A stretch of DNA of 38,146 nt, from contig JAUXUD010000036.1 of the NCBI GenBank assembly GCA_030680835.1, positions 1-38,146 of the forward strand, written 5' to 3'. Shown piece after piece: positions 10,465 to 14,889 of the stretch. The notes under the pieces are model-generated. The model was not told the DNA's origin and did no database searches. It saw only the letters and a list, made by a program, of their open reading frames with translations. Position 1 is the stretch's first letter. Every line of letters starts with the position of its first letter. The translations under genes were made by a program, and so were the position numbers. Source of the DNA: Bacteroidota bacterium (GTDB taxonomy: Bacteria; Bacteroidota; Bacteroidia; UKL13-3).

Positions 10465-11817
10465 TTACAGTCCCGGAATGTTTGGGAGCTCGATGTTGAG
10501 GCTGATGAAAAAGGCAATAAGGGTTAAAACCGAATAGAGCAGGAATTCGCCTACGGCGGTGTATTTGCGTACATCTATACCTTCCATCTTACAGTAAATC
10601 ATCAGCAATATTTTTTCGATGGTGCACGAAATTACAAATGCATACGCAATGCCTTCAATGCCCCAGAAAGATATAAACCAGTAAGAAAGTATGCAGTTAA
10701 TAATAAGATAATTGGTTGAAACCAAATAAAAAATTCGGTTCTTCATCAGCCCCATAATTACCGTTTGTGGATACACCATGCGGCCAATTATCAATAATAA
10801 ATAAATATTAAAAATGCGGTAACCCTGCACCAAATCATGGTTATAGGCAAGTTGAAAGAAGTATTTGCTTACAAAAATAAAAATAATGGTGGCCGGAAAA
10901 AGCCAGCGCATCAGTTTGCGTGATGATGCTTTTAACCTTGCGAGCGCCTCTTCGAGGTTGCCCTCTTTATTTAAATTGGCAATTTCGCCACTGTAAATAT
11001 TGCTTAAGGAGTTGGCTAAAATTAAAAATATGGGCAATTCCTTGGCAGCGTACCTAAACACGGCAAAATCCACTTCACTGTAATAAAACTCAACAATATA
11101 GCTATTGATATAATCCATGCTTCCTGCCAGCAATATGCTGAACATAAACGGAATTACCTTTTTCATAAAATCACTGATGAGCCTTGTGTTTACGCTTATT
11201 GTTGAATATTTCATCAACAAAATTATTGTATAATTAAATTTGAGTAATGACAAAATCACCCAAAGATTTATGGCATAATTTAAGGTAAGTCTAAAAAAAA
11301 TGGGTACGCAAAGCAGGACTATTTGTGCGGTAAAGGTTATTGCCCCCCAAATAATGAGCGATCGGTATTTCCCTTTCAGGTATAAGGTATAATCGGCAAT
11401 GTAAGACGGCGTATTTAAAAAAATAACCAGGGCAAACATCTGAAACAGGTCGGAGTTTTCGGGGTATTTAACATAGCCGATAATTACGGTTGCAATACCT
11501 GCTAACAGGCTTAATACTGTAACCAGGGCAAATGCATTAAATAGTATTCGTTTTTGCTGATCTTTGTTGCTGGCGTTATAAAAAGGAATTAATGTATTGG
11601 TAATACTCGAAACCCAAAAGAAAGTTAAGCTGCCGCTTAGTAACAAAAGCAACTCAAATTTACTGATAATAAGCGGACCAAAGCCTGCAGGGTAGCGGAA
11701 ATAGGTTATTTTGGCTAAAAGAATGGATATGGCAAAAAAGGAACCAAATCTTAAAAACTGGTAGATTTGGAGACTATTGAATTTATTGAGTTCGAACCTA
11801 TTTTTTATGAGCAGCAA
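10465..11817 (-). CDS. Polysaccharide biosynthesis flippase-like membrane protein (MOP superfamily)
   Basis: This 450-residue protein has about twelve to fourteen hydrophobic segments and the general layout of the oligosaccharide flippase (Wzx-like) branch of the MOP exporter superfamily. Examples are FGSFFAISILLAKITYFRYPAGFGPLIISKFELLLLLSG near the start and RYAAKELPIFLILANSLSNIYSGEIA in the middle. It would move lipid-linked glycans across the inner membrane. There are no glycosyltransferases next to it, so the substrate is unknown. No ATG occurs near the N-terminus, and an in-frame stop lies two codons upstream, so TTG at 11817 is the probable start. Confidence 0.82.
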   Translation of the reverse strand: MLLIKNRFELNKFNSLQIYQFLRFGSFFAISILLAKITYFRYPAGFGPLIISKFELLLLLSGSLTFFWVSSITNTLIPFYNASNKDQQKRILFNAFALVTVLSLLAGIATVIIGYVKYPENSDLFQMFALVIFLNTPSYIADYTLYLKGKYRSLIIWGAITFTAQIVLLCVPIFFRLTLNYAINLWVILSLLKFNYTIILLMKYSTISVNTRLISDFMKKVIPFMFSILLAGSMDYINSYIVEFYYSEVDFAVFRYAAKELPIFLILANSLSNIYSGEIANLNKEGNLEEALARLKASSRKLMRWLFPATIIFIFVSKYFFQLAYNHDLVQGYRIFNIYLLLIIGRMVYPQTVIMGLMKNRIFYLVSTNYLIINCILSYWFISFWGIEGIAYAFVISCTIEKILLMIYCKMEGIDVRKYTAVGEFLLYSVLTLIAFFISLNIELPNIPGL

Positions 11818-11877: not shown

Positions 11878-13716
11878 TTATAACAGGTTCCTGCTACTTT
11901 TTACCTTTTTTATTCCCAAAAGCAGCGAATTGCCTATTACCACCACATCGCTCAGCGCCATCGACAAGGCACCGAGCATGGGATGCAAAAATCCGGCAGC
12001 CGCCAAAGGGATGCATAAAACATTATAGAAAAATGCCCAGAACAAATTTTGCTTTATGGTTTTGTAGGTTTGCTTGCTAATAATATGTGCTTCTTCAATG
12101 GCACTGATATCATGTCGCATAAGCACCAGGTTGGCGGCCTGAGTGGCAATGTCGGTTGCTTTACTAAACGAAATGCCCACCGAAACCTTGCTCAGTGCCG
12201 GTGCATCATTAATGCCATCGCCCACCATAACCAGAGGCGTACCTCCCAAACGCGATTCGATATACTGGAGTTTTTGTGCAGGCATTTGTTCGGCAAAGGC
12301 ATGGCTTAACTTTAATACATTTTGCAACTGATCCACCTTTTGCTGTTTATCGCCGCTTAATAAAATGGTTTCAAAATTCTCGTCCTTCAAATACACTATA
12401 AGTTCGGTTGCGCCATATTTAAGCGTATCTTTTATTTTTATACTTGCTGCCAGTTTTTGGTTCAGCAATAAAAACAAATCATCGTTTTTATCCATGTTTG
12501 GGGCAATTTGGGCTGAACCAAATAATACCCTTGTGCCATTTGCCAATAGCGCTTCCATACCGGTTCCTTTTATTTCTCGGGTTGATACAAAGCTCAGAGG
12601 TTTTGTATTCCAGTCTGCTTTTTGTTGAACCAACGATTTTGCAATCGGATGAGACGAATGGCTTTCCAGGTGATAAATAAGGTTTTTGAGTTCCTGTTCA
12701 TCTCCTTCACGTATGTTTAACCCGCCAAACTCAAACTCGCCTGTAGTTAGTGTACCCGTTTTATCGAAGAGTATGGTTTTACTTTTGGCAAAATTTTCAA
12801 GCACCTCTCCCCCTTTTATAATAATTCCGCGCCGTGCAGCCTTACCTATTCCCACCATAATAGCCGTGGGCGTAGCCAAACCCATAGCACAGGGACAAGA
12901 AATTACCAAAACCGCCACAGCCCTCAGCATGCTTTGGGCTGAACCCAGATCTAAATAAAAATAAGAGAACAAAAAGGTAATTAAGGCGATAAGCAAAACA
13001 ATAGGCACAAAAATAGCAGATACCCGGTCGCCCAGTTTCTGAATTTGTGGTTTGCTGCCCTGGGCTTTTTTCACCATTTCGATAATCTGACAGAGCACCG
13101 ATTCCTTTAAAAGGCTTTCAACCCGAACCTGTAGATTACCATTTAAAATCACTGTTCCGCCTATTACTTTATCTCCTGTTTTTTTGCTTACCGGCAAACT
13201 TTCGCCCGTTAGCAGACTTTCGTCGCACTCTGCCGCACCTTTTGTAACCACTGAGTCGATGGGTATTTTGCTGCCTGTATTCACCTGCAAAATGTCGCCT
13301 TTTTTTAAACTATCTACTGTAACTTCTTCCTGATGTGCATGCCCGTTGTGATCAACAATTAATAGTGCAGTTTTTACTTGTAAAGCGGTAATGGCATGCA
13401 GGGCCGAGGTAGTTTTTTTAATAGAGCGTTTTTCGAGCAGATTGCCCAATAAAACAAAGCAGATAATGGAGGCACCCGTTTCGTAAAAAAGGTATAAATG
13501 CACCTCATGCGTACCTGCAAAAGCAAGGGTACCATATACACTATAAAAAAGCGATGCCGCCGCACCTATAAAAATAAGTACATCCATATTGGGCACACCG
13601 CCCTTTAAGCTATGGTAAGCACTACGACCGAAAAACCACAAGCCAACAGTATAAACCGGTATTGATAAAATTAGCTGAACCCAGGGATTGTGCAGCGGTT
13701 CCCAGGGCAAAACCAT
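11878..13716 (-). CDS. copA: Copper-type P1B ATPase (CopA), catalytic part lacking an in-frame HMA domain
   Basis: This is the membrane and catalytic part of a heavy-metal exporting P-type ATPase. Motifs of the 612-residue reading are TGES (170-173), the metal site CPC (274-276), phosphorylation loop DKTGT (Asp318), SSHP and GDGINDAP. CPC plus a Cys-x-x-Cys HMA domain points to Cu(I). The ATG at 13716 lies inside what should be a transmembrane helix: the same frame is open upstream as LLGSLEAKLIF-CLIFTIPLALH up to an A10 run at 13792-13783. There it meets the HMA domain gene in another frame. Adding one base, or a -1 ribosomal shift, gives a single normal 718-residue CopA. So this is either a programmed-frameshift gene or one with a homopolymer error. 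The internal ATG is probably not the true start. Confidence 0.93.
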   Translation of the reverse strand: MVLPWEPLHNPWVQLILSIPVYTVGLWFFGRSAYHSLKGGVPNMDVLIFIGAAASLFYSVYGTLAFAGTHEVHLYLFYETGASIICFVLLGNLLEKRSIKKTTSALHAITALQVKTALLIVDHNGHAHQEEVTVDSLKKGDILQVNTGSKIPIDSVVTKGAAECDESLLTGESLPVSKKTGDKVIGGTVILNGNLQVRVESLLKESVLCQIIEMVKKAQGSKPQIQKLGDRVSAIFVPIVLLIALITFLFSYFYLDLGSAQSMLRAVAVLVISCPCAMGLATPTAIMVGIGKAARRGIIIKGGEVLENFAKSKTILFDKTGTLTTGEFEFGGLNIREGDEQELKNLIYHLESHSSHPIAKSLVQQKADWNTKPLSFVSTREIKGTGMEALLANGTRVLFGSAQIAPNMDKNDDLFLLLNQKLAASIKIKDTLKYGATELIVYLKDENFETILLSGDKQQKVDQLQNVLKLSHAFAEQMPAQKLQYIESRLGGTPLVMVGDGINDAPALSKVSVGISFSKATDIATQAANLVLMRHDISAIEEAHIISKQTYKTIKQNLFWAFFYNVLCIPLAAAGFLHPMLGALSMALSDVVVIGNSLLLGIKKVKSSRNLL

Positions 13717-13761
13717 GTGTAAAGCCAGGGGAATTGTAAAAATAAGGCAGAATATGAGTTT

Positions 13762-13793
13762 GGCTTCAAGCGAGCCTAAAAGTTTTTTTTTTC
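13762..13793 (-). promoter_or_regulatory. Candidate -1 programmed frameshift site joining HMA domain and ATPase
   Basis: On the minus strand the HMA gene ends with codons GAA AAA AAA AAC TTT TAG. The heptamer A AAA AAC (13788-13782) is in exactly the frame needed for tandem -1 slippage. A shift there continues as KKK-LLGSLEAK into the ATPase. Five nt after the heptamer, GGCT/AGCC (13776-13762) can form a small hairpin with a 7-nt loop. The run holds ten A; eleven would fuse the genes outright. A homopolymer sequencing error or transcriptional slippage would look the same. Confidence 0.55.
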
Positions 13794-14027
13794 TGAACCT
13801 GCTGGATTGTCTTTAACTACTACATAGCCTAGTTCTTCAATGCTTTCGGTAAGTTCGGCCAAAGATTTTTGAGGTGTATTTTCAAAACGAACCTCACCGG
13901 TGGCAAAATTCACATCTACTTGTTGCATGCCTTGTTTTTCGAGTCGTTTGCGAACACTCATGGCACAATTGGTACATGTCATTCCTTCAACCTGAATCTC
14001 TGTAAGTTTATTTTCCGACTCCATCAT
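13776..14027 (-). CDS. Heavy-metal-associated (HMA) domain protein, CopZ-like; N-terminal domain of CopA
   Basis: This is a single HMA domain with the Cu(I)-binding motif GMTCTNC (Cys20 and Cys23 in the long reading) and the usual fold markers VNFATGEVRF and EELGYVV. As an independent product it would be a copper chaperone of about 80 residues. Joined to the downstream frame it is the N-terminal domain of the copper ATPase. It ends at TAG 13778-13776, right after the slippery A-run, with the tail NPAGSEKKNF. Start choices are GTG at 14033 or ATG at 14027 or 14024; I prefer an ATG. It is divergent from the superoxide dismutase gene, which begins 85 bp away. Confidence 0.85.
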   Translation of the reverse strand: MMESENKLTEIQVEGMTCTNCAMSVRKRLEKQGMQQVDVNFATGEVRFENTPQKSLAELTESIEELGYVVVKDNPAGSEKKNF

Positions 14028-14086: not shown

Positions 14087-14094
14087 TAGCTTTG
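14087..14094 (+). promoter_or_regulatory. -7 promoter element of the superoxide dismutase gene
   Basis: TAGCTTTG is a perfect match to TAnnTTTG and sits 18 nt before the ATG at 14113. I see no good -33 TTTG at the expected distance. The in-frame TTG at 14092 lies inside this box, which argues against it as a start codon. Confidence 0.4.
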
Positions 14095-14112
14095 GTCGAA
14101 ATAAATGCACAC

Positions 14113-14889
14113 ATGAAAACCAACAGAAAAGACTTTATAAAATCGGCCGCATTAATTGGTTTGGGCGGACTGAGTATGGGTTTGGAGGCAAAAACCTTGT
14201 TCCACAATGAAGCAGTGTCAAATTCAGTTGCACCCAATTCAATTCAACAAAATTCAGTTGCACCCGGGATGGGCAAATTCGATTTGCCCCTACTGGGGTA
14301 TCCATATAATGCTCTGGAGCCTTATATAGATGCCAAAACCATGGAAATACATCATACCAAACACCATCAGGCCTATATCAATAAATTAAACGAGGCATTG
14401 GAAAAAGAGCCTACGTTAAAAACCATGGAGCTCGAACAAATATTAAAGAACCTGGCCCTGCAGCCCGATTCCGTAAGGATTGCGTTGCGCAATCATGGTG
14501 GCGGGCATTGGAACCACAGCTTTTTCTGGCCCCTCTTAAAAACCAATACTGCTATGGGAGCCCGTTTTACCAAACTGGTAAACGATTCGTTTGGATCAGC
14601 CGAAGTATTTAAAAAAGACTTTGAAAAGGCCGCCATGGCTGTATTTGGTTCAGGTTGGGCATGGGTAATTTTGCAAAACGATAAATTAAAGATTGTGAGC
14701 ACTGCAAACCAGGATAATCCTTTAATGGATGCATCGGTAAATCCCGAATATAAAGGCAAACCGATATTGGGTATAGATGTTTGGGAGCATGCATATTATC
14801 TCAAATATCAGAACAAGCGTGTTGATTATGTAGGGGCATTTTGGAATGTTTTGAACTGGGATCAGGTTGAGTTGAATTGCAAAAGTTAA
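14113..14889 (+). CDS. Exported Fe/Mn superoxide dismutase with signal and repeat-containing linker
   Basis: This enzyme converts superoxide to oxygen and hydrogen peroxide. From the ATG at 14113 it has 258 residues. Residues 1-27 resemble a Tat-like or Sec signal (TNRKDFIKSAALIGLGG; only R-K, not R-R). Residues 33-53 are a linker made of a duplicated NSVAP unit. The conserved enzyme starts at KFDLPLLGYPYNALEP (55). Metal ligands are His80 (EIHHTKHH), His135 (WNHSFFW), Asp222 and His226 (DVWEHAYY). Gln200 in STANQDNPLM and GGGHW favour manganese or cambialistic use. The signal suggests a periplasmic or secreted enzyme, unlike cytosolic SodA/SodB. It is divergent from the copper pump; copper and superoxide stress are commonly linked, but co-regulation is only inferred. 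Confidence 0.94.
   Translation: MKTNRKDFIKSAALIGLGGLSMGLEAKTLFHNEAVSNSVAPNSIQQNSVAPGMGKFDLPLLGYPYNALEPYIDAKTMEIHHTKHHQAYINKLNEALEKEPTLKTMELEQILKNLALQPDSVRIALRNHGGGHWNHSFFWPLLKTNTAMGARFTKLVNDSFGSAEVFKKDFEKAAMAVFGSGWAWVILQNDKLKIVSTANQDNPLMDASVNPEYKGKPILGIDVWEHAYYLKYQNKRVDYVGAFWNVLNWDQVELNCKS
14271..14293. repeat. Palindromic repeat copy inside the superoxide dismutase gene
   Basis: GGGCAAAT-tcg-ATTTGCCC plus CTAC matches the intergenic palindrome at 3589-3611 at 21 of 23 positions. Here it encodes GKFDLPLL at the junction of linker and enzyme. Just upstream AATTCAGTTGCACCC is present twice, at 14221-14235 and 14251-14265, exactly 30 bp apart. FDLP also matches normal SOD sequence, so chance similarity is not excluded. 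Confidence 0.5.

Follow-up and report, generated by a model that had tools for sequence, protein, structure and literature searches.

The split copA locus

The gene considered here is a copA-type gene, encoding a putative copper exporter of the P1B-type ATPase family, on the minus strand of contig JAUXUD010000036.1 (assembly GCA_030680835.1) of a Bacteroidota bacterium; the whole stretch of DNA that was analysed, 38,146 nucleotides (nt) in length, is called the window below. The gene is divided between two reading frames at a run of ten adenines (A10), the junction reading GGT TCA GAA AAA AAA AAC TTT TAG GCT CGC TTG AAG CC on the minus strand. A previous interpretation made from the letters of this stretch alone, hereafter the sequence-only reading, had described the frame of the copper-binding HMA domain as ending in GAA AAA AAA AAC TTT TAG, and these are its final codons at 13793-13776, the protein closing with GSEKKNF. 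The ATPase frame lies one base back (-1) from the HMA frame, is open across the A10 run, translates as KKLLGSLEAKLIF... and continues for 636 amino acids (aa) to a stop at 11878. That it is open 5' of its first ATG as far as the A run, as the same reading held, is borne out by the positions of its last upstream stop (23 nt ahead of the run) and its first ATG (66 nt beyond the run). Correct, too, was the placing of the heptamer A AAA AAC (13788-13782) in exact phase for a -1 shift; a further in-phase heptamer, A AAA AAA, which had gone unmentioned, overlaps it (Table 1).

Table 1. Elements of the split copA locus, in window coordinates
Element	Position	Strand	Remarks
Zero-frame open reading frame (ORF), 83-aa HMA protein with MTCTNC	13776..14027	-	ATG 14027-14025 (putative start; second ATG directly after) to TAG 13778-13776
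A10 run, where RNA polymerase, ribosome or both presumably slip	13783..13792	-	
In-phase heptamer A AAA AAC	13782..13788	-	last base varies in relatives
Overlapping heptamer A AAA AAA (two Lys codons), also in phase	13785..13791	-	phase kept at all 22 split loci
Zero-frame stop TAG	13776..13778	-	one sense codon past A10
-1 frame, copper-type P1B ATPase	11878..13788	-	run to stop; joined product 716 aa by coordinates
First ATG of the ATPase frame	13714..13716	-	66 nt beyond A10, inside the first hydrophobic stretch; unconvincing start

The two frames encode recognisable proteins. The HMA ORF matches PF00403 at E 1.2e-12 (48.5 bits, cut-off 24.8) and consists, like CopZ-type chaperones, of a single HMA domain with a CxxC motif (MTCTNC); it stays under the cut-offs of the curated CopZ models, with 47.5 bits for NF033795 (cut-off 91) and 44.3 bits for NF047957 (cut-off 85), at E-values of 1.6e-12 and 1.7e-11. 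The predicted 83-aa soluble protein is probably a copper chaperone. The ATPase matches PF00122 (E1-E2 ATPase) at E 7.8e-55 and exceeds the cut-off of TIGR01511, the model for copper-translocating P-type ATPases (486.5 bits versus 397), while the equivalog for E. coli CopA, NF007952, is not reached (372.3 bits versus a cut-off of 1316). It carries SCPC, DKTGT and GDGINDAPAL; CPC in the membrane, DKTGT and GDGxNDxPAL we take to be the motifs of Cu(I) P1B-type ATPases (CopA). The joined length of 716 aa compares with the open frames of 700-734 aa in 12 members of the same family in which the HMA domain and the ATPase are fused.

Conservation of the break and of the A run

The same arrangement occurs in 22 loci of 22 genomes, of which 17 belong to the genus of the window, two to genus g4, one to family f38 and two to family f60. 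In all of them the break and the slip site are conserved together across species, and the shift required is always -1. The run is A10 in 20 loci, A11 in one (L014) and A9 in one (L151), each reaching the homopolymer length of eight or more that is used as a threshold for slippage in PMC3711429. In L014 the codon AAA stands in the place of AAT in the near relative L013, which means that A11 arose through a substitution that left the phase unchanged. What surrounds the run is freer: 15 loci have G, six have C and one has T on its 5' side, and the codon that ends it is AAC in 13, AAT in 6, AAG in 1 and AAA in 1, with L151 continuing from A9 into GCC. In an alignment of 17 loci (16 of the genus and L118), all ten adenines are invariant at a mean column identity of 58%. 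The conserved unit is therefore the whole A9-A11 run and not the last base of the heptamer, so that of the sequence-only reading's expectations for related genomes the kept run and the lack of any uninterrupted frame in the readable genomes of the genus were confirmed, but strict conservation of the heptamer A AAA AAC was not.

The coding capacity on both sides is preserved as well. In 21 loci the zero-frame stop follows the run at 3-4 nt, and in L012 at 25 nt; CxxC is present in the 21 HMA frames covered (the stretch of L153 begins too late), and both CPC and DKTGT are found in every split ATPase. From the run to the stop, the ATPase frames measure 625-639 codons in 21 loci, the remaining one (L131) being ended by the end of its contig. 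Across the junction split and fused genes encode similar protein sequence, and this likeness lies 5' of any start codon. No run of nine or more adenines occurs in 39,468 nt of the ATPase bodies of the split loci.

In the window itself A10 is the sole run of at least nine adenines on either strand; the two nine-A matches both fall within it, against a mean of 15.06 in shuffled sequence. As an observation on the composition of the window at large, long A and T runs are avoided there, A10 being the only run of at least nine of either base in 38 kb, far under the shuffles.

Distribution among relatives

The genus search covered 19 genomes including the window's own. One (G002) had no close copy and in another (G003) the copy ends at a contig end; the junction was readable in the other 17, all of which are split alike, the 16 loci besides the window's having ATPases of 58-68% identity to it. 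Within the family, an ATPase at E <=1e-140 was found in 30 of 64 genomes. Of these, 12 are fused and 18 are split, the latter being the 17 already counted plus G029 of genus g4; a second g4 genome, G028, is also split, its gene being cut by a contig end, falling below the threshold and having been located via its HMA domain. A sample of the class yielded such an ATPase in 146 of 395 genomes, five of them of the window's genus. Two from two other families (G139 and G324) are split, one (G254) ends at a contig end and the remaining 138 have open frames of at least 663 aa. Most of these fused calls were made by frame length alone, for which the 629-659 aa open frames of split ATPases served as the yardstick; the shortest (G146, 663 aa) was read and is fused, and the next measures at least 686 aa.

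The wider searches added little to the split set. In the family of G324 (70 genomes) there were two matches at E 1e-130, which add the split G480, and no further split loci came from the order of G139 (5 genomes) or that of G324 (108 genomes). A phylum sample gave matches in 19 of 395 genomes, 18 of which, besides the window's own, are fused as judged by length. A collection of named genomes supplied 80 loci, and the junction was read for 37 of these, L074-L116 (43 loci) lying outside: 30 are fused (L038-L066, L069), six have no HMA match by the ATPase (L067, L068, L070-L073) and one, L037, is split and is apparently the same record as L016. No plasmid copy emerged at 60% identity or more among 132 matching records.

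Short HMA ORFs elsewhere in the family were followed up in 20 stretches, of which L131 holds a split copA and L149 a distant fused gene, while the other 18 have no ATPase like the window's. Among the matches listed, other genera of the family have small stand-alone HMA proteins that carry CxGC and have a C-terminal part in common (GYPE...SC; L130, L132-L144, L147, L148), and no close CopA lies beside them within the stretches examined. In genus g4, stand-alone CxGC proteins and split copA occur together.

History of the split state

A tree of the ATPases was built from 47 sequences, 22 split and 25 fused, with L010 left out as the same gene as L153. Mapped on it, the two states require at least four changes, and four to five over the bootstrap trees. 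The 17 split genes of the window's genus form one branch (support 87/64) adjoining the fused genus g3; split g4 adjoins fused g10, split G139 adjoins the other, fused members of f38, and the pair of split loci from f60 sits apart on a long branch. The pattern is compatible with four gains and also with one old gain followed by several losses. In the 17 fused relatives whose junctions were printed, A runs near the junction reach eight at most.

A proposed recoding mechanism

The explanation that best accounts for these observations, and which we consider very probable, is that copA is expressed by programmed recoding at the poly-A run and yields both the 83-aa HMA protein and the 716-aa pump. 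Standard reading of the mRNA would stop one codon past A10 and give the soluble HMA protein, while a fraction of expression would shift by -1 within the run and give the full HMA-ATPase copper exporter. The shift would most likely come from RNA polymerase adding one adenine, an mRNA with A11 being back in frame. Not far behind in likelihood is -1 slippage of the ribosome at A AAA AAA or A AAA AAN, which may also contribute. If recoding occurs, the polymerase is somewhat more likely than the ribosome to be the machine, and both may act. The sequence-only reading, too, had normal decoding produce the chaperone and slippage the pump, the reverse of E. coli, and this assignment appears to be the best available. 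The break, its conservation and direction, the constancy of the run and the lack of a nearby start for the ATPase are established by the sequences; the making of both proteins, their ratio, the identity of the slipping machine and the role as chaperone are deduced.

Signals that might stimulate a ribosomal shift were sought around the run. Downstream of it RNAalifold, with pseudoknots outside its scope, found no consensus pairs in 14 loci; folding z-scores averaged -0.55 in the 22 split loci versus -0.17 in 25 fused (p 0.21); and synonymous identity past the run was ordinary (1.07 versus a mean over windows of 1.157, 14 loci), without extra constraint. Within 20 nt upstream, 19 of the 22 loci have no Shine-Dalgarno-like string. 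The small hairpin proposed by the sequence-only reading can form in the window, where GGCT (13776-13773) is able to pair with AGCC from 5 nt past the heptamer, but it is not conserved in relatives. Transcriptional slippage, which that reading had ranked among the main alternatives, is for this reason at least as likely as ribosomal slippage.

Several observations weigh against recoding as set out here, or against its polymerase component. According to Antonov et al., a direction that never varies is a sign of ribosomal over transcriptional slippage (PMC3711429), and by this rule the constant -1 direction of all loci points to the ribosome; shared descent could also be the cause of that constancy. 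Three loci (L021, L022, L023) have a short purine string weakly resembling a Shine-Dalgarno sequence, which is not general, and in a single case, L118, the downstream hairpin is stronger than in shuffles, with z about -3 to -4. AAA is the Lys codon in 75.5% of cases anyway, and one of 15 invariant Lys columns of the ATPase is all AAA (14 loci). The fused relatives manage without any slip device. The cut-offs of TIGR01525 (heavy metal, 531.1 bits) and TIGR01512 (cadmium family, 382.9 bits) are likewise exceeded by the ATPase, whose copper specificity is accordingly putative. Finally, the same genome has a second copA-like ATPase, of 824 aa with two HMA domains in one frame and 38% identity to the window's ATPase, as well as a third, P1B-like ATPase of 808 aa (contigs C42 and C30, loci L001 and L003), so that the split pump is not the sole pump.

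Alternative explanations

The alternative that survives best differs from the preferred explanation only in the machine: the same two products would be made mainly by the ribosome, two Lys-tRNAs slipping by -1 at A AAA AAA (or A AAA AAN) with no strong stimulator involved. The two overlap, and the likelihoods that we attach to them do not sum to one; on its own we regard the ribosomal version as a possibility of rather lower standing. Besides the constant direction it has in its favour that A AAA AAA is in phase at every split locus and that for a proven insertion-sequence case at A AAA AAC no stimulator has been established (PMC4066793). It does not account for the adenines kept beyond one heptamer, nor for the freedom of the base after the run, and the lack of conserved structure, of a Shine-Dalgarno-like string in most loci and of raised synonymous conservation counts against it.

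A second alternative is a pair of independent genes, with the ATPase starting by itself after the TAG of the HMA gene, by translational coupling or reinitiation. Downstream starts do exist, the first ATG lying 57-72 nt past the run, and clusters of frameshifted ABC-transporter and MATE-efflux genes have been classed as translational coupling (PMC3711429). In all 22 loci, however, the ATPase frame lacks ATG, GTG and TTG alike between its upstream stop and a point 30 nt beyond the run, and its earliest ATG lies at least 57 nt out, within the first hydrophobic stretch; in the window it sits in LIFCLIFTIPLALHM, and an ATPase begun there would presumably lose most of the first membrane helix. The residues before this ATG are moreover alike in split and fused proteins, the fused relatives having the same Met (in His-Met), and coupling needs no invariant A10. 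Two independent genes are accordingly improbable.

Decay of the gene, or an on/off switch at the DNA level (phase variation) at A10, appears less probable again. Homopolymers are switch sites, and the C10 of Rhodobacter capsulatus copA gains indels (PMC5829832), but the split loci all keep the same phase, whether at A9, A10 or A11, and their ATPase frames are intact except where the contig ends. A sequencing or assembly error, which the sequence-only reading had kept among its alternatives, can for practical purposes be set aside: homopolymers are error-prone and the relatives from the named collection are nearly all metagenome assemblies, but the identical break recurs in all 22 genomes, the fused relatives printed have at most eight adenines in a row there, and the alternative falls because all 16 other readable genomes of the genus keep break and run.

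Relation to known systems

Recoding of copA is known from E. coli, where normal decoding gives the pump and a -1 shift the chaperone (PMC5009743, PMC7558416). As there, one gene would here supply two products, an HMA chaperone of about 70 aa in E. coli and a full pump, by a -1 shift; unlike there, the shift would give the pump, and it lies at A10 with no conserved structure found. Of the features of the E. coli type, a downstream stimulatory structure was not recovered in the 14 sequences folded, and the zero frame, rather than encoding the pump, ends once the HMA domain is complete in all 22 split loci.

A further counterpart is offered by the two-ORF dnaX genes with ten adenines, in which recoding is needed for the longer protein and transcriptional realignment has been proposed (PMC3711429, which also cites the A9 of Thermus dnaX). 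They share with the split copA the A10, the two ORFs, the -1 shift and the dependence of the longer protein on recoding, but encode a DNA polymerase subunit and not a membrane pump with its chaperone. In the window's genus dnaX is not a second poly-A gene of this kind: unbroken frames of 580-630 aa were found in 17 of the 19 genomes, with one match cut and one genome without a match. In Citrobacter rodentium, tssM1 is interrupted after an A11 run, polymerase slippage adds adenines to restore a longer product that makes up about 20%, and both forms are needed, whereas a related Yersinia site gives a shorter product instead (PMC4256274). As proposed for the split copA, this gene is completed by added adenines; it differs in belonging to a secretion system and in having been demonstrated by experiment. 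R. capsulatus copA, by contrast, resembles the present gene in position, with a homopolymer of ten before the first transmembrane helix, and a soluble metal-binding product has been discussed for it; its ten C's are in frame for the pump, and the changes described are inactivating DNA indels (PMC5829832).

Recoded copA genes and A10 genes recoded for a longer product are each known, so that what appears to be new is their combination. In the titles, abstract openings and excerpts consulted a copA with an A10-recoded pump was not found, though the original E. coli paper or Sharma et al. 2011 may mention one. On a tentative footing, which we would place somewhat short of even, a poly-A slip that releases the metal-binding domain of CopA could have originated several separate times in Bacteroidia, chaperone first and pump by slippage, in convergence with the ribosomal signal of E. 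coli and with the run fixing the ratio of chaperone to pump.

If recoding is correct, it would constitute a second, mirror-image way of obtaining a copper pump and its chaperone from one gene, with slippage required for the pump and its dose relative to the chaperone set by the homopolymer. Since split and fused states alternate among relatives, the value of a free HMA protein would be directly testable. The arrangement also suggests that in these genomes the pump may be mistaken by automatic annotation for a truncated or frameshifted gene.

Neighbouring genes

Directly 3' of the pump, on the same strand, lies an ORF of 450 aa (10465-11817), which has no Pfam match at E 0.001. On the other side, at 14092-14889, is a divergently placed Fe/Mn superoxide dismutase, the N-terminus of which resembles an export signal by eye.
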